The position numbers were made by a program, and so were the translations under genes. Shown one piece after another: positions 1,464-24,195 of a stretch of DNA of 24,514 nucleotides. Numbering within the stretch: the first letter of the stretch is position 1; the number at the start of each line of letters is the position of its first letter. The notes under the pieces were generated by a model. That model did not search any database. It was not told the DNA's origin and was given only the letters and a program-made list of their open reading frames with translations. This DNA is from a virus. The stretch lies in the IMG/VR virus record IMGVR_UViG_3300045107_000167, positions 1-24,514 of that record. One strand, 5' to 3'.

Positions 1464-1483
1464 TGCCCTGTACCTCCTTGGGG

Positions 1484-1511
1484 TTGACAGGGCAATCAAC
1501 CAGGCTATAAT
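1484..1511 (+). promoter_or_regulatory. Strong sigma-70-type promoter, rightward
   Basis: A perfect TTGACA (1484-1489) and a perfect TATAAT (1506-1511) are separated by 16 bp. Transcription would start near 1518 and run rightward, antisense to the intergenic and 3' region of the two leftward genes. No rightward gene follows before 2473, which suggests a regulatory RNA rather than an mRNA promoter. Confidence 0.65.
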
Positions 1512-1547
1512 GTGCTTACCACAGGCACAGATGCTGGTTGATCGCCC
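1490..1547. promoter_or_regulatory. Operator-like inverted repeat bracketing the promoter start site
   Basis: GGGCAATCAACCAG (1490-1503) fills nearly all of the -35/-10 spacer. Its reverse complement with one mismatch, CTGGTTGATCGCCC, is at 1534-1547. The centre of symmetry, near 1518, falls on the predicted transcription start. This is the geometry of a paired repressor site; the XRE protein encoded at 2473-2760 is an obvious candidate ligand, but that is inference. Confidence 0.5.
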
Positions 1548-1557
1548 GCTTCTGTTG

Positions 1558-2244
1558 CTAACCCAGGAGAACAGCTGAGGTGACGCTCGGCTGTTCTCCT
1601 ATTTCCGACATCGGACACGTCAAAGGAACCAGCTTGCCGAACTGCGCAGCCGAGACGATGGACTCGGGCCAGATATCTTGGAGCTCCGGCCCAAAGTAAC
1701 CCTCAGCCGCTATCTCGTCGTGCGCTTTGGCGATGTACTTCTCGATCGTCTTCAGATCGGGCAACCACAGGACTCCGCGTTTACCCTCGTCCTCTGGGCC
1801 ACGCACGCGGTACCCTCGGGCGATCAGTCGTGCCTGCATTTTCTTCATGCCGATCGCGATCTCGCCGCGCATTTTCCCAACAATCAAGATGTCCTTAATA
1901 GCGTAGTAGGTTGTGATGTACTCTGCCCGAGGCTTCCACCCATTCCGCTGTCCGACCTCGGATAAAGGGACAATATCGGCTCTCTCCTGCAAAGTGTCTA
2001 GGCTCTGCGCGTACGCGCGACTGTTCCCACCAAAGGTGCGAATGTGATCAGGAACTAGCTCGGCATGCCATGACTCTTTGTGCCATTCGGGACCAAACGT
2101 CTCGGTCCATCGCTTCGCGCACTCTGAGCAGGTGCGGTGCTTAGTAACTCGGCCGATCGTCCTGGAGCAGTACAGGCACTCGATTTCGTCGCTCGCCAAC
2201 CGAGAAGGGCAACCACCCTGAGGTTTCAACTCGTTACTCTCCAT
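1558..2244 (-). CDS. Uncharacterised 228-aa protein with a Cys4 zinc-ribbon-like motif
   Basis: I do not recognise the family. Residues 23-42 contain CLYC and CSEC pairs (C23, C26, C39, C42) separated by 12 residues, which suggests a small structural zinc site. The middle (about 95-135) is predicted helical, with a YITTYYAIKDILIVGKM stretch reminiscent of winged-helix DNA-binding segments, and the rest is charged. A nucleic-acid-binding role fits the motif and the position directly upstream of the primase on the same strand, but nothing proves it. The ATG at 2244 is preceded by GGAGA at about nine bases. The last residues are encoded inside the 1565-1600 hairpin and a TGTCCG-type palindrome (1602-1617). 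Confidence 0.6.
   Translation of the reverse strand: MESNELKPQGGCPSRLASDEIECLYCSRTIGRVTKHRTCSECAKRWTETFGPEWHKESWHAELVPDHIRTFGGNSRAYAQSLDTLQERADIVPLSEVGQRNGWKPRAEYITTYYAIKDILIVGKMRGEIAIGMKKMQARLIARGYRVRGPEDEGKRGVLWLPDLKTIEKYIAKAHDEIAAEGYFGPELQDIWPESIVSAAQFGKLVPLTCPMSEIGEQPSVTSAVLLG
1565..1600. terminator. 15-bp hairpin at the 3' end of the Cys4 gene, possible terminator of the rightward RNA
   Basis: AGGAGAACAGCTGAG (1565-1579) pairs with CTCGGCTGTTCTCCT (1586-1600), with one G-U pair and a GTGACG loop. On the + strand it is followed by ATTTCC, on the minus strand by GGGTTAG, so neither side has a good U-tract. It lies about 50-80 bases downstream of the predicted start of the TTGACA/TATAAT promoter, so it may define the end of an ~85-nt RNA. 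It is also inside the last codons of the leftward gene. Confidence 0.4.
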
Positions 2245-2425
2245 CTCTACGTCTCCATTTGTTCAGACTACTGACGATGGGTCGAGCAGTGCGAATCTTC
2301 TGAAGTTTCTTCGCTCGACTACCTATTCATCATAGCAGATAGAGTTCGAGTAACGCGAATATTAATAGCGATATACTATCATGGGCGTATCGATTCGACA
2401 ATATGGTAGACAGAAAGCGAATTAC

Positions 2426-2472: not shown

Positions 2473-2760
2473 ATGATAGGGACAGAGCAAGTCGTGGCGA
2501 TTAGAAGTAACCTGAGGCTAGAGTTCCGTGAGTTCAACGTAGAGCGGCTGCGTGCCGGGAAGAACGAGTGGACGCAAGCTGATCTTGCACGGGAGGCGGG
2601 GTTGGCAGAGTCCGTGGTCTCGGCCTTCATGACAGATCAGGTGAAGCGTGTCGATCTGGTGACTCTCGATCGCCTGTGCCGAGTGATGGACTGCGAGCCT
2701 GGGGATTTATTGAAGCGAGTGAAGGACGAAGCGCCCGCCGACTCTAGTACGAAAGCGTAG
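2473..2760 (+). CDS. XRE/Cro-C1-type helix-turn-helix transcriptional regulator
   Basis: A 95-residue protein. The segment WTQADLAREAGLAESVVSAF followed by a helix and LDRLCRVMDCEPGDLLKRV (about residues 33-82) is the standard five-helix Cro/C1 fold with the HTH_26-like ending 'CRVLDCEPGDLL'. It is small, without a peptidase or multimerisation domain, and would act as a DNA-binding repressor or Cro-like switch. The ATG at 2473 is used because CAGGA (2461-2465) sits about seven bases upstream; an in-frame GTG at 2494 is a weaker alternative. It is divergent from the Cys4/primase pair, the usual arrangement of a phage or plasmid immunity region. Its stop overlaps the inverted repeat CGTAGG/CCTACG (2756-2761, 2775-2780). 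Confidence 0.85.
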   Translation: MIGTEQVVAIRSNLRLEFREFNVERLRAGKNEWTQADLAREAGLAESVVSAFMTDQVKRVDLVTLDRLCRVMDCEPGDLLKRVKDEAPADSSTKA

Positions 2761-3040
2761 GTGCTTCGAAATCGCCTACGTAGCTGTACATTAGACAGAG
2801 GGGGCATAGAAATTCACGCCTTGCCGCTCGCGTCTGCGGACCACACCTTGGCAAGGCTTGCCTCCTCTTCCATCATCCCGAGCGCCACACGACGGATGGC
2901 TGGATTAGCGCCCTGTCTCCTCGTCTCTCCGGTATGAGGCCCGGTCGTCGTAAGCGGCCGGGCTTCGTGCTTCCTCTAGCCGCCCCGTCAGCCGCGCCGG
3001 CGCCGATCGTCGGCGCTCCTCTTCATGTCCGACGTCGGAC
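2761..3040. other. Non-coding stretch rich in inverted repeats
   Basis: No convincing gene or tRNA is seen in these 280 bp. It contains GCCTTGCC (2818-2825) mirrored by GGCAAGGC (2850-2857), the latter embedded in overlapping palindromes CCTTG-G-CAAGG and GGCAAG-G-CTTGCC. A terminator-like hairpin lies at 2937-2965, GCGCCGA-TCG-TCGGCGC near 3000-3016, and the 20-bp palindrome at 3024-3043. It could hold operators, or be the scar of an insertion that brought in the glycosyltransferase. Confidence 0.5.
2937..2965 (+). terminator. Terminator-like hairpin downstream of the XRE gene
   Basis: AGGCCCGG (2937-2944) pairs with CCGGGCTT (2958-2965) with one G-U pair and a 13-nt loop, followed by CGTGCTTCCTC. 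The tract is only weakly U-rich, so termination is possible but not certain. Confidence 0.4.
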
Positions 3041-3043
3041 ATG
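3024..3043. repeat. 20-bp perfect palindrome of the TGTCCG-N4-CGGACA family
   Basis: CATGTCCGACGTCGGACATG is perfectly self-complementary, and its last three bases are the ATG of the first possible glycosyltransferase start. Its core TGTCCG...CGGACA matches the repeats at 8706, 22210 and 22232 with a different central tetranucleotide. Confidence 0.85.
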
Positions 3044-4066
3044 ACGACGGCCACCAAACATCTCTATTGCTTTTCCTGCCACGCTCTGAGCGACACCATG
3101 CCGAAGTTCCCGCGCACCCTGTTCGTCTACGACGACGCCTCAGCGAGCACGCTGTATCGGCTCGTAATGCCAGCCGAGGCCCTAGCTAATGCTGGCTACC
3201 CAGTAGCACACGGGGCGAGCACCAGCCTTCCGGACATCGTGGTGCGCCAGTACGAGCTTGTCGTGGTTAGTCGCGTCGGCACTGGCGTCAACCAGGCGCT
3301 GGCGGCGATCGAAGGACTGCATGCGGCTGGCATTCGGGTGGCGATCGACTATGACGATGACTTGCTCCACCTACCCCCACACAATCCCGCTTACGGCGTC
3401 GACATCGAGGAACTGAAGGCAGTGCTCCGCGCCGCCGATGGTGTCATCGTCACGAACGCCGCGCTTGCGTCGAGCCTTCGACCGTACGCCAAGCAAATCG
3501 CGATTGTCCCGAACTATGTGCCGGTAAAGCGATGGCCGACACCGCAGCCGCGAGAGGGTATCACGGTCGGCCTGGTGGGGAGCCCGTCGCACGTTGAGGA
3601 CTGGCGGAGCGTCGCCGAACCGATGCGGGCGATCCGGGAGCGATATCCCGACGTGCGGTTCCTGGTCGCCGGCTTCCTGCCTCCCTACTTGCAGAACGTG
3701 GCGACCGAGTACGTCGAGTGGGTCGACATCGGCCGGTACCCGGCACTTGTGAACCGCATCGACATCGGCCTCTGCCCGCTTCAGGATGACCAGTTCAACC
3801 GCTGCAAGACGCCCATCAAGGCGTACGAGTACGCCATGGGCGGCGCTGCTGTTGTTGCATCGCCAACCCAGTATGGCTCGGTCGTTCGCGGCAAGGGGAG
3901 CATCGCCAGAACTGAAGCGGACTGGTTCGCAGCGATCGAGCGCTACATCGTGGACACAGAGAAGCGCCGCAGAGACGCTGATGCTCTACGGCGCTATGTG
4001 CTGACGCTCGACATCACCCGGCACGTCAAAGAGCTTGCCAGGGCATACGCAGAGCTAGGACGCTAA
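3041..4066 (+). CDS. GT-B-fold glycosyltransferase (phage or surface-modification type)
   Basis: Up to 341 residues. The N-terminal half has a Rossmann-like start (RTLFVYDDASASTLYRLVMPAEAL) and a YDDD motif around the inter-domain region. The C-terminal half has GLVGSPSHVEDW and the nucleotide-sugar-binding signature FNRCKTPIKAYEYAMGGAAVVAS, in which the Glu of 'YEYA' contacts the donor sugar in GT4-like enzymes. It probably transfers a sugar to a surface polysaccharide, teichoic acid-like polymer or protein; the acceptor is unknown. The ATG at 3041 lies in a palindrome with no ribosome-binding site, and the first 19 residues look poorly conserved, so the ATG at 3098 (MPKFPRTLFVYDD) is a likely alternative. 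It stands between regulator and late operon, as phage 'moron' cargo often does. Its TAA interlocks with the stop of the convergent gene. Confidence 0.75.
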   Translation: MTTATKHLYCFSCHALSDTMPKFPRTLFVYDDASASTLYRLVMPAEALANAGYPVAHGASTSLPDIVVRQYELVVVSRVGTGVNQALAAIEGLHAAGIRVAIDYDDDLLHLPPHNPAYGVDIEELKAVLRAADGVIVTNAALASSLRPYAKQIAIVPNYVPVKRWPTPQPREGITVGLVGSPSHVEDWRSVAEPMRAIRERYPDVRFLVAGFLPPYLQNVATEYVEWVDIGRYPALVNRIDIGLCPLQDDQFNRCKTPIKAYEYAMGGAAVVASPTQYGSVVRGKGSIARTEADWFAAIERYIVDTEKRRRDADALRRYVLTLDITRHVKELARAYAELGR

Positions 4067-7382: not shown

Positions 7383-8758
7383 ACATCACTGCGCAGCTCT
7401 GGCGCGACCGACAGGATGCCGAGCGGGACGCCCGACTGGCACGGATCAAGCGCGCCGTCGACTACTACGAGGGCCGCCATACCCCGCAGCTCGATACCGA
7501 GGACGGCGACTACAACGACAACGTGATCGTCAATCTCGCCCGACCGATCGTTGATCGCGGCGTGGCGTTCCTCTTCGGCAAAGAGCTGACCTGGCAGATC
7601 GATGAGACCGTCACCGGCGACACCAAGCTCGAAACCTTCCTGAAGCGGGTCTGGAAGGCGAACAAGAAGATGGTGCTGCTGCAGGAGGTCGCGCAGAACG
7701 GCGCGTTGTCCGGCATGGCCTTCGTCAAGATCGACCCACAGCCGGACAGCACCTACCGCCTGATTAACCTCGATCCGGCGACCGTCACGGTCTCCCATAG
7801 CCCCCAGGATATCGAGGACGTGTGGCGCTACCGAATCGAGTACACCGCCGCCGACGAGAACGGGCGCGAGGTTCACTACCGGCAGGACACCGAGCGACTA
7901 GACCCCAAGAATCGGCAGAGCCACTGGGTTATCCGCAGTTATGAGGCTAGCGGTGCCGGCGCACGCTACGTCAAGGTCGGCGATGACGTCGCCTGGAAGT
8001 ATCCGTGGCCACCGATCGCGCACTGCAAGAACCTGCCGGCCGCGAACCAGGTCTGGGGCTACGCCGATCTTGACGACACTGCGCTTCACGACGCACTCAA
8101 CCTGATCGCCTCAGCCATGCGCCGCACACTGCGGCTTCACGCGCACCCGCAGACGATCATCTTCGGCGCAGCGGCCGATGGTCTGGAGCGCGGCCCAGCC
8201 AATATGTGGGCCTTCCCCGATGCTCCCGACGCGCGGGCCGAGAACCTGGAGATGCAGAGCGATCTGGCAGCTGCCAAAGAGTTTTATCTGACGCTGCGCA
8301 ACGCGATCTACACCACCGCACGGATGCCCGATATGGCAGCGATCCAGGACAAGCTCGGCAACATGACCAACTTCGGGCTGCGAGTGCTGTTTGCCGATCT
8401 GCTGCAGAAGAACGAGCTCAAGCGACTGCTCTACGGCGACCTGGTTGAGACCCTGTGTAAGCGCCTCGCTGAGTTGGGCGGCTTTGGAACAGACATCGAC
8501 CTCGCGCTGACATGGCAGGACCCGCTGCCGGTCAATACGCTAGAGAAGGCCAACGAGGTCACGGTCAAGCAGAAGACCGGTCTAGCCTCGGATGAGACGC
8601 TGACTGGCGAACTTGGTTACACCTACCAGGATGAGCAGATCCGGCGTACTGCCGAAGGGCATCCCAAGGCGCCGGCCGCATCGAGCAACGCAGACGCACA
8701 CCCGGTGTCCGTTAACGGACAACCCCCTGTTGATCATGCTGGCCAGGCGCCAGCATAA
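7379..8758 (+). CDS. Portal protein, SPP1 gp6-like
   Basis: A 459-residue protein forming the dodecameric vertex through which DNA is packaged and to which the neck attaches. RIKRAVDYYEGRHTPQL, then NVIVNLARPIVDRGVAFLFGKEL, is the N-terminal signature of the SPP1-type portal family, and NMTNFGLRVLFADLLQKNELKR matches its C-terminal helical part. The ATG at 7379 is chosen because it forms an ATGA overlap with the terL stop and AAGGA precedes it by six bases; the frame stays open upstream, but that part is terL shadow. The last ~20 codons include an in-frame copy of the TGTCCGTTAACGGACA palindrome, read as VSVNGQ, in a disordered tail. Confidence 0.9.
   Translation: MNITAQLWRDRQDAERDARLARIKRAVDYYEGRHTPQLDTEDGDYNDNVIVNLARPIVDRGVAFLFGKELTWQIDETVTGDTKLETFLKRVWKANKKMVLLQEVAQNGALSGMAFVKIDPQPDSTYRLINLDPATVTVSHSPQDIEDVWRYRIEYTAADENGREVHYRQDTERLDPKNRQSHWVIRSYEASGAGARYVKVGDDVAWKYPWPPIAHCKNLPAANQVWGYADLDDTALHDALNLIASAMRRTLRLHAHPQTIIFGAAADGLERGPANMWAFPDAPDARAENLEMQSDLAAAKEFYLTLRNAIYTTARMPDMAAIQDKLGNMTNFGLRVLFADLLQKNELKRLLYGDLVETLCKRLAELGGFGTDIDLALTWQDPLPVNTLEKANEVTVKQKTGLASDETLTGELGYTYQDEQIRRTAEGHPKAPAASSNADAHPVSVNGQPPVDHAGQAPA
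8706..8721. repeat. Palindromic repeat TGTCCGTTAACGGACA, copy within the portal 3' end
   Basis: Perfect 16-bp palindrome identical to the copies at 22210-22225 and 22232-22247. It lies in-frame in the last codons of the portal gene. Confidence 0.9.
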
Positions 8759-22209: not shown

Positions 22210-22247
22210 TGTCCGTTAACGGACAACACGATGTCCGTTAACGGACA
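22210..22247. repeat. Tandem pair of TGTCCGTTAACGGACA palindromes
   Basis: Two identical 16-bp palindromes at 22210-22225 and 22232-22247, each preceded by CGA and repeated with a 22-bp period, about two helical turns. They lie between the last late gene and the operon terminator. The same sequence occurs at 8706-8721. Confidence 0.9.
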
Positions 22248-22281
22248 GCCGCCCCTACCGAGATTTGGTGGGGGCGGTTTT
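22248..22281 (+). terminator. Rho-independent terminator of the late operon
   Basis: CCGCCCCTACC (22249-22259) pairs with GGTGGGGGCGG (22267-22277), one G-U, a seven-base loop, then TTTT (22278-22281). It is oriented to stop rightward transcription. The stop codon of the leftward NACHT gene falls in its left arm, at 22255-22257. Confidence 0.8.
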
Positions 22282-24195
22282 GATTCCCTCGACAAGGTGG
22301 GTTTGCTCATCAGAGGTGAGGCTGGCGAAATACTCAAGGAGAGACCGGTGAATGAATATGTATCCGCCGCCGACTTTGCGCAGTAGAATGCAGTCGGCAC
22401 AAGAGTTCAGGAAGAGGGCAAGCTTCAAGGGTAGAAGGCCAGCACGATAAAGCATAAGACGAAGCACAATGTGTTGTAGAACCGCGATTCCGCCATACGT
22501 GACCCCTGCGCGCAGCCCCAAGACTAGCCCGATGCTCAGCACTGCGATCGGGACGTAGGTCGGCCCAACGGCTAGCTCGTAGATCGGCTGAATGACCGTG
22601 CCGGAGACCAGCCCTAAGATTAGTCCAATGACCAGCCACAGGAGCAACACCATAACCGCATTCATTCCTGATCGCCATATACTCTCATTTGGACTGTTTT
22701 TGGTTGTCAGCATACCATTCCTCAACCCATTCGCCACCCCAACGATCAGTCCCATGAGCAGCCCTATGGCCAGCACTTCGACCAGTACTCCGACTGGCCC
22801 TTTAACCAGCCCATTAACCAGCCCTTTAACCAACTCGTACACAAGCCCGAAAGTCAGTCCTATGACCAGCCCGGAGATTAGCCCTCGCCTTGCTTCTCGC
22901 CAGGACCAGGCGAGCATCTCTGTAGGTTTAATAGTAACCAGCCCTTTGCCAAGCCCGAAGAGCAACCCGTACTCCAGCCCGCAGACCAGCCCTCCAAACA
23001 CCCCCGCGACCAAACCGAACGCGGGCCCCATGGCCAGCACATTCCCCAGTCCATGCACCAGCCATAAGAGCAACACAAGATTATTTCTGTAAATTCGTTC
23101 TTTATATTGTGGAATCCAAGAAGGTTGCATGTTCTCAATGAAATACACCGACTGCGACTCGTGAACCATCTGTCCTGCCAACCACGAGAGCCACCGAACC
23201 ACTCGCTGAGGAGCATAGCGATCACTGCCACGACGCTGTAGCATGCGTCGAACATAGGCAGCGAACACACGCGAGCGCTGCTCTGCGATTGACTCCATCA
23301 CCGGTAGCTCATCAATCGGCGCCCCCTGATACGCCAGAGTCAAGATGCTCAGCATCAGCGGCGTCTCAAGCATCTCTTGGAGGACGGTGTCAGCCTGGAG
23401 GAGTGTCCGAAGCGCTTCGAGCTCAGCGCGCACAAGATAGGCGTCAATTTGCTCCGCCGTGAGTGTCTGTACCTGAACGGCGGTCTGCAGTTTGAGCGGC
23501 GCCGTGAGCGCCTCGTAGTCGGCGACGCGACTGCACGCCACGATGCGCGCCATACCGTGCATACTACGAAACGCATTGATGGCCGCGACACAGGCATTGC
23601 GATGTTCCGCCTGAACTTCGTCGAGGCCATCGAGCATCAGCAGGATGAGATCATCGGCAACCCACTCTCTACCGAGCTTCCTCGTTACGCCATAGCCAGT
23701 ATTCAGCTCTTCGACCAACCACACATCCAGCGCCTTGCGCTCCCTTGCCCACGATGACAGGTTGAACACCACCGGCATCGGCATGCTGTCGTCTTGTTCT
23801 GCCTGCAAGATAAGATCGCGAGCGAGTTCCAGAAGAGTTGTCGTCTTACCCGAGCCCGGCGCACCGAGGATCAACAACTCACCGCCAGCGTCTTTGAAGA
23901 CATCGGCAATGCGCGTACCAGGCGGTAGTGACTCACTGCGGTCGTACTCGCGGCGAACCATGCCCCAGGGGCGATCAACGGCGTCGGGGCGCTCCTCCAT
24001 GTTCAGCGCGATCAGCACTTCCTTGTAGAGCGACTTTTCGAGGACACCCTGAACCCACGTCACACGCACCTTCTCAAGCATCGTGCGACGATCACGCTTT
24101 TGACGCGCATCCAATACAGGCGGCTGGTGAAAATGAATATCACCAGCCGCGTTGTACTGCGTACCTACCTGCTGATTGCGCTGATCAAACGTCAC
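22255..24195 (-). CDS. NACHT NTPase with C-terminal GLxx-repeat membrane domain (candidate anti-phage protein)
   Basis: A 646-residue protein. The N-terminus has VGTQYNAAGDIHF, a short beta motif I associate with NACHT- and TIR-type conflict proteins. Residues 107-118 hold Walker A (LLILGAPGSGKT), 183-194 the NACHT Walker B (LILLMLDGLDEV), and 216-228 a sensor strand ending in ACSRVADYE. From about residue 370 onward most of the chain is hydrophobic with a four-residue GLxx period, e.g. GLVYELVKGLVNGLVKG, in three blocks, and it ends with GGGYIFIHRSLLEYFASL. It likely oligomerises on sensing a trigger and acts on the membrane, as in bacterial STAND/NACHT defence proteins. Start: GTG at 24195, in a GTGA overlap with the upstream ORF, hence translational coupling. 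It stands opposite the late operon. Activity is inferred; whether the prophage or a separate island owns it is unclear. Confidence 0.85.
   Translation of the reverse strand: MTFDQRNQQVGTQYNAAGDIHFHQPPVLDARQKRDRRTMLEKVRVTWVQGVLEKSLYKEVLIALNMEERPDAVDRPWGMVRREYDRSESLPPGTRIADVFKDAGGELLILGAPGSGKTTTLLELARDLILQAEQDDSMPMPVVFNLSSWARERKALDVWLVEELNTGYGVTRKLGREWVADDLILLMLDGLDEVQAEHRNACVAAINAFRSMHGMARIVACSRVADYEALTAPLKLQTAVQVQTLTAEQIDAYLVRAELEALRTLLQADTVLQEMLETPLMLSILTLAYQGAPIDELPVMESIAEQRSRVFAAYVRRMLQRRGSDRYAPQRVVRWLSWLAGQMVHESQSVYFIENMQPSWIPQYKERIYRNNLVLLLWLVHGLGNVLAMGPAFGLVAGVFGGLVCGLEYGLLFGLGKGLVTIKPTEMLAWSWREARRGLISGLVIGLTFGLVYELVKGLVNGLVKGPVGVLVEVLAIGLLMGLIVGVANGLRNGMLTTKNSPNESIWRSGMNAVMVLLLWLVIGLILGLVSGTVIQPIYELAVGPTYVPIAVLSIGLVLGLRAGVTYGGIAVLQHIVLRLMLYRAGLLPLKLALFLNSCADCILLRKVGGGYIFIHRSLLEYFASLTSDEQTHLVEGIKTAPTKSR

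Follow-up and report, generated by a model that had tools for sequence, protein, structure and literature searches.

A predicted counter-transcript and a candidate start-masking switch at the primase gene of a probable Chloroflexota phage

A consensus sigma-70-type promoter lies between the Cys4 and primase genes of a phage-like record and very likely fires rightward, antisense to the message of those two genes. An antisense role is the most likely reading of this promoter. In the form that we favor, at about even chances of being correct, a counter-transcript made from it would restrain the primase by masking the translation start, in a manner resembling lambda OOP RNA and RNAII of pMV158. 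Restraint of a replication gene by small counter-transcripts is well documented in lambda and in plasmids of Enterobacteria, Firmicutes, and cyanobacteria. We regard the locus as a candidate of this known kind, in which the candidate fresh element is a start-masking switch that shares an arm with another stem. If real, it would add a Chloroflexota phage case of a counter-transcript acting on a replication gene, linked to a RepB-type primase and working through a specific refolding step; in our impression, Chloroflexota phages have been little studied at the bench. In the excerpts of the literature available to us, neither this locus nor a phage antisense RNA directed at the start of a primase gene came up in a search, which does not prove absence. 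Coordinates are collected in Table 1.

Table 1. Features at and around the Cys4-primase junction (positions in the window)
Feature	Positions	Strand	Details
Sigma-70-type promoter	1484..1511	+	TTGACA 1484-1489, 16-bp spacer 1490-1505, TATAAT 1506-1511
Counter-transcript, ~85 nt (predicted)	1518..1603	+	Start A1518, end just past hairpin
3' hairpin of counter-transcript	1565..1600	+	Arms 1565-1579/1586-1600, 14/15 complementary, one U-G in + RNA
Sense-strand stem upstream of primase start	1490..1547	-	Arms 1534-1547/1490-1503, 14 bp, one G-U; 13/14 complementary
Masking helix	1462..1496	-	1487-1496 pairs with 1462-1471, 10/10 bp perfect
Primase Shine-Dalgarno AAGGAGG	1473..1479	-	9 nt before ATG (1463-1461); anti-SD duplex -12.5 kcal/mol
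RepB-type (archaeo-eukaryotic) DNA primase, 407 aa	240..1463	-	C-terminal helix-turn-helix; proposed target
Cys4 gene, CxxC-x12-CxxC, 228 aa	1558..2244	-	Last 43 nt under predicted counter-transcript; second possible target
Likely promoters of Cys4-primase message	2329..2401	-	TTGTCG-17-TAGTAT and TGC-TATGAT; weak matches
XRE/Cro-type repressor	2473..2760	+	Pfam HTH_26 E 3.8e-16; divergent from Cys4-primase operon

The window, by which we mean the whole stretch of DNA analyzed, is a virus record of 24,514 bases (G000) that lacks end repeats and encodes a terminase, an SPP1-type portal, and a phage capsid protein. The XRE repressor gene is divergent from the leftward pair formed by Cys4 and the primase. 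Two regions in the genome of Herpetosiphon aurantiacus DSM 785 (L041 and L043) contain relatives of the terminase with 65 to 66% identity, and a further relative, also at 65%, is in a bin labeled Isosphaeraceae (L042); the remaining good matches are mostly from Chloroflexota. These relatives place the phage near Herpetosiphon, and its host is therefore probably a Chloroflexota bacterium. One of the Herpetosiphon regions, which is prophage-like (L043), carries two perfect TTGACA-N16-TATAAT promoters (1276-1303 and 8288-8315), each with a short hairpin and T-run after it; one of the two sits just upstream of late-type genes. These units may represent a small RNA or a leader resembling lambda pR'-tR'.

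The sequence-only reading that preceded this work had described a perfect TTGACA/TATAAT promoter with a 16-bp spacer, and the match proved exact. It is the sole 12/12 promoter in the window, where one further site reaches at least 10/12 (2407, +), and a perfect site arose in none of 1,000 dinucleotide-preserving shuffles of the whole window. Across four Chloroflexia genomes, chosen for convenience (one Herpetosiphon and three with primase matches, none of them shown to be the host), TTGACA-N16-18-TATAAT occurred 155 times, compared with 7 for the reversed pattern (36, 61, 38, and 20 per genome forward versus 2, 4, 1, and 0 backwards). The excess indicates that most sequences of this kind are genuine promoters in the likely host group.

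The start of the RNA is placed at A1518 by its distance (7 nt) past the -10 element, and a counter-transcript made from there would end near 1603. Up to the hairpin end, this RNA would lie antisense to the final 43 nt of Cys4, and it would also span ~40 nt of the 94-nt gap between Cys4 and the primase ATG. An RNA of ~85 nt complementary to the junction, as had been proposed, is accordingly what the sequence predicts. The 89-nt + strand RNA of 1518-1606 folds at -43.5 kcal/mol, whereas shuffles average -24.0 (z = -6.2), a stability owed to the 15-bp hairpin, which is present and ends near 1600 as described earlier. A consensus terminator scan did not flag this hairpin, which would be a weak or noncanonical terminator; its termination efficiency is uncertain because only 3 of the 8 bases that follow are T. 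The predicted RNA contains no start of a credibly long open reading frame (ORF), the longest being of 15 aa (ATG 1531, without a Shine-Dalgarno sequence) and 39 aa (GTG 1580, extending beyond the hairpin). This agrees with the earlier view of a promoter that fires into the 3' end of Cys4 with no gene to express.

On the opposite strand, even a relaxed consensus scan found no leftward promoter in 1470-1760, between Cys4 and the primase, and several weak ones in 2329-2432. Most simply, transcription of the primase would start at the Cys4 promoter, and the resulting message, since no sense promoter was found between the two genes, should contain the whole antisense target.

Three inverted repeats fall within 140 bases at the junction. 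In local shuffles of 1455-1604, an arm of at least 14 with at most one mismatch was obtained in 2 of 1,000 and a perfect arm of at least 10 in 4 of 1,000. The third repeat, which the sequence-only reading had missed and which offers a concrete mechanism, forms the masking helix; it encloses the primase Shine-Dalgarno sequence and pairs the AU of the AUG. Since it has seven bases (1490-1496) in common with the upstream stem, the two structures are mutually exclusive. Both repeat mismatches are transitions: the repeat at 1490-1547 is wobble-perfect (G-U) only in - strand (sense) RNA, and the 15-bp hairpin (U-G) only in + strand RNA. With a single change in each, this hints only weakly at the former acting as sense RNA and the latter as antisense RNA. 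The earlier reading had interpreted the repeat at 1490-1547 as operator-like and bracketing the transcription start. The repeat exists, and its center (1518.5) coincides with the likely start; the operator interpretation did not hold up, as a stem formed by the sense mRNA accounts for the repeat better. An XRE operator, for which a short dyad with both half-sites inside a single operator length would be expected, was rejected at this position: the arms, of 14 bp each, are asymmetric, stand 30 bp apart, and show no inner symmetry by eye.

Folding was calculated over five leader lengths, with antisense pairing mimicked by blocking the target bases. In the free leader, the upstream stem had a probability of 0.74-0.94 and the masking helix one of 0.10-0.29. 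When 1518-1547 or 1518-1604 was blocked, the masking helix rose to 0.98 at every length and the openness of the AUG dropped from 0.36-0.43 to 0.05-0.25 (to 0.08-0.25 with only 1518-1547 blocked). Blocking only 1548-1604 gave a masking helix of 0.05-0.07 in four of the five lengths and 0.31 in the longest (1380-1640), in which it already reaches 0.29-0.31 without the key pairing. The openness of the Shine-Dalgarno sequence alone barely changed (0.48-0.73 free, 0.59 bound). The same block applied to random window stretches equaled the Shine-Dalgarno-to-AUG drop of 0.235 in 4 of 400 and the AUG-only drop in 30 of 400; thus, the effect is unusual for the whole start region rather than for the AUG alone.

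Under the proposed mechanism, transcription of the Cys4-primase message would begin upstream of Cys4 and run leftward, and the rightward promoter would supply a short, constitutive counter-transcript against it. In the free leader, the upstream stem would leave the primase start region fairly open. Pairing of the counter-transcript with 1518-1547 would free 1487-1496 to pair with 1462-1471, forming a hairpin that holds the Shine-Dalgarno sequence and part of the AUG, and translation of the primase would fall. In addition, RNase III may cleave the long duplex and thereby lower Cys4 expression. Because the counter-transcript would follow template number, the outcome could be a dose-sensitive brake on replication that links the primase with the copy number of the phage DNA or with lysogeny. 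We infer that the counter-transcript pairs with the message in vivo and that translation is the controlled step. The layout, which matches that of lambda pO-OOP (PMC3985674, PMC5869508) and of pMV158 RNAII (PMC4485353), speaks for this model. Against it stand the T-poor stretch after the hairpin, the nearly constant openness of the Shine-Dalgarno sequence, an AUG-only drop that is not unusual, the partial masking already present in the longest leader, and the rarity of the promoter among distant relatives. A further, doubtful proposal is that one stretch of DNA performs three jobs, as the -35 end and spacer of the promoter, as an arm of the open-state stem, and as the start-masking arm of a brake on a RepB-type primase. 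By analogy, and just as tentatively, such a stretch would combine the lambda OOP layout with refolding of the pT181 kind. If this is true, a promoter change in the stretch would retune the RNA switch as well, suggesting that the same bases can encode both a promoter and an RNA switch.

We know of no sequence relation between this locus and the pMV158 RNAII of the copG-repB region. That RNA, of 48 nt, inhibits repB translation from an intergenic leader (PMC4485353). As is predicted for our locus, it is a counter-transcript of a leader directly upstream of the rep start signals and has one 3' hairpin (PMC4485353); our target leader would likewise lie within a polycistronic message, with no separate sense promoter detected here by consensus scan. 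The folding calculations support an RNAII-like inhibition of primase translation, which would be the controlled step in the model above. In contrast, RNAII belongs to a plasmid with a rolling-circle RepB and a canonical poly-U terminator, and the portion of PMC4485353 available describes no alternative hairpin such as that proposed here. The antisense-driven refolding of the leader has its parallel in pT181, where pairing with RNAI lets another hairpin form just before the rep start codon (PMC3861533). The pT181 hairpin is a transcription terminator, whereas the hairpin at 1462-1496 encloses the Shine-Dalgarno sequence and part of the AUG and is followed by no U-run, which argues against pT181-type attenuation. 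Synechocystis pSYSA produces an abundant antisense RNA, asRNA1 (ssr7036-slr7037), against the small gene that immediately precedes a primase-type Rep gene, an arrangement that our locus resembles (PMC9978351). It differs in its length (~150 nt), its overlap with coding sequence, the ColE1-like priming with RNase E proposed for it, and its primase-helicase Rep. A review of phage small RNAs, in the sections available, describes OOP, sar, aQ, and c4, none of them aimed at a primase start (PMC12197685), and mycobacterial prophages with RNA-based origins exist (PMC7157519). On sequence grounds, the locus cannot be assigned by descent to any of the systems compared, because the testable genes are nonhomologous and Rfam yielded no match above the gathering score in the whole window.

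The same RNA might instead act as lambda OOP proper does, with the Cys4 message as its main target (through RNase III) or by promoter collision, and without specific masking of the primase start. We consider this unlikely, if far from negligible. As in lambda, the promoter lies between a regulator (cII or Cys4) and a replication gene (O or primase) and is aimed into the 3' end of the regulator, with the repressor gene on the far side and in the same reading direction. Cys4 is, however, not a CII homologue (it has no family), and the primase is not an O homologue. We know of no start-masking switch in lambda. Both loci predict or produce a short RNA with an end hairpin, which overlaps cII by 52 bases in lambda (PMC5869508) and would overlap Cys4 by 43 nt here. 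OOP is thought to work via RNase III (PMC5869508), and lambda pO lowers transcription from the opposing pR (PMC3985674), in line with either route. Lambda pO has a LexA-binding sequence and a -10 element close to the O start (PMC3985674, PMC5869508), whereas the -35 element of our promoter is ~20 nt from the primase start. This alternative leaves the third repeat at the primase start and its shared arm unexplained.

The gene adjoining the promoter had been called a primase, and the assignment was upheld as RepB-type: Pfam RepB_primase was matched by all four aligned members (best E 3e-9), with the window's own protein at 0.05, below the curated cutoff. Its PHROGs matches were to "DNA primase" (3.8e-7) and phrog_3123 (2.7e-11), and the four-member alignment retains both a DD pair and a motif resembling RVPGxxNxK. 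Primase matches (E ≤0.01) occur in 12 of 158 Chloroflexia genomes, the best (8e-51) being nearly full length. Because the three aligned homologues (L218, L220, and L222) have longer open frames (703 to 1021 aa versus 407 aa), the window primase may be a short form lacking the C-terminal part. Cys4 had no Pfam, PHROGs, or phage match. Its one candidate match (27%, in L216 and L226) was rejected, as it is confined to the zinc-ribbon-like beginning of an enzyme-like protein of 412 aa, which we read as threonine-synthase-like. AlphaFold models were unusable for both proteins (pLDDT 34 for Cys4 and 36 for the primase).

RSF1010 ssi hairpins are single-strand sites for a RepB-type primase. A second alternative, which we judge quite unlikely, is that the transcript or hairpins serve a replication origin, through transcriptional activation, as a primer, or as such sites. 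The membership of the primase in the RepB_primase group and the strong hairpins beside its gene are compatible with this view, as is the influence of lambda pO on replication (PMC3985674). However, an ssi site needs no perfect sigma-70 promoter, and neither iterons nor a replication origin were identified in the window. Direct repeats at the left edge (1-125) were considered as iterons and rejected: this segment, with three ~21-bp repeats, is the end of an IS21-family element within which the contig breaks. Bases 1 to 125 were matched in 4 of 158 Chloroflexia genomes at 70 to 93%, and four of the five matches stop at 125-126; an ORF ~0.8 kb from one of them scores 283.8 (cutoff 160) against the NCBIfam IS21 transposase. 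The left 260 bases had no match among plasmids. The comparison with plasmid copy-number control in the sequence-only reading presumes an extrachromosomal replicon and was not substantiated; no partition or integration gene was identified in the window. Between the IS21 end and the primase stop lies an imperfect 17-bp inverted repeat (133-211, 94% complementary) with an inner GGGCC/GGCCC hairpin, either a terminator or a small MITE-like element.

A third alternative is a repressor-establishment promoter like lambda pRE/pE: RNA reading past the weak hairpin and across Cys4 would express the XRE gene, making the repressor a possible read-through product. The direction and the poor U-tract of the hairpin would allow this. 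We nevertheless find it improbable, as it entails an untranslated antisense lead of ~950 nt with the 15-bp hairpin in its path, and a 10/12 promoter for XRE lies nearer (2407-2435). Lambda pE is itself poor in consensus. It also requires the activator CII (PMC5869508). Elsewhere in the window, a 16-bp palindrome, TGTCCGNNNNCGGACA, is dispersed at 3026, 8706, 22210, and 22232 (a tandem pair at 22210), with imperfect copies at 1602, 1949, and 10187; it is perhaps operator- or stoperator-like, for the XRE repressor.

That the promoter is inert, or its RNA a functionless product of chance or a relic, seems decidedly improbable given the shuffles of the window (0 of 1,000), the genome counts (155 versus 7), and the clustering of three repeats at the promoter. 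In its favor is that no conservation was seen in distant relatives. Close relatives of the primase and Cys4 were absent from the viral contigs searched, as was a close primase relative from the species-genome collection; phage records gave no DNA match, plasmids gave no primase match, and the one distant phage primase match was to Curtobacterium phage Yappy (25.5%). Likewise, 1455-1620 retrieved only short, chance-like DNA matches in the 158 Chloroflexia genomes (best E 0.006 over 22 bases). The distant primase relatives share 22 to 36% identity across the matched parts. Among 18 of 19 viral relatives (L227, whose match begins at residue 181, was excluded), an antisense promoter of at least 9/12 near the primase start was absent in 17, and L240 has one of 9/12; in this set the start codons are insecure, the match is weak at several loci, and the upstream sequence of L231 amounts to only 20 bases. 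Four Chloroflexia relatives were also compared, weaker primase matches being left out. Three lacked the antisense promoter (the leaders of L220 and L221 being short or uncertain), and L222 has a 10/12 antisense promoter ~100 nt before the primase start, where blocking the RNA target left the start region unchanged in folding. Lack of the promoter in related elements, which the earlier reading had named as refuting, was seen in distant relatives only, which cannot decide the matter at such identities; the survey weighs mildly against conservation. The exact core of the repeat at 1490-1547 is present in 15 other viral contigs, none with a TTGAC-type promoter beside it in a script scan; most of these occurrences are AT-rich stems without relation to it or belong to coding sequence, and thus the repeat does not represent any known conserved element.

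Finally, a small + strand protein gene is very improbable: although the 15-aa and 39-aa ORFs exist, and AGGAG lies upstream of the latter, frames of such lengths are expected by chance, the 15-aa ORF has no Shine-Dalgarno sequence, and that of the 39-aa ORF, which is antisense to Cys4, is inside the 15-bp stem.

Two other genes of the window deserve mention. A glycosyltransferase-like gene (3041-4066, +; phrog_7162, E 5e-32) separates the immunity region from the packaging genes. Near the right end, 22255-24195 (-) encodes a NACHT-type ATPase (Pfam NACHT, E 5e-7) with a long hydrophobic GLVxGL repeat region and weak PADLOC matches to mad8 and PDC-S60, a possible defense or exclusion gene.
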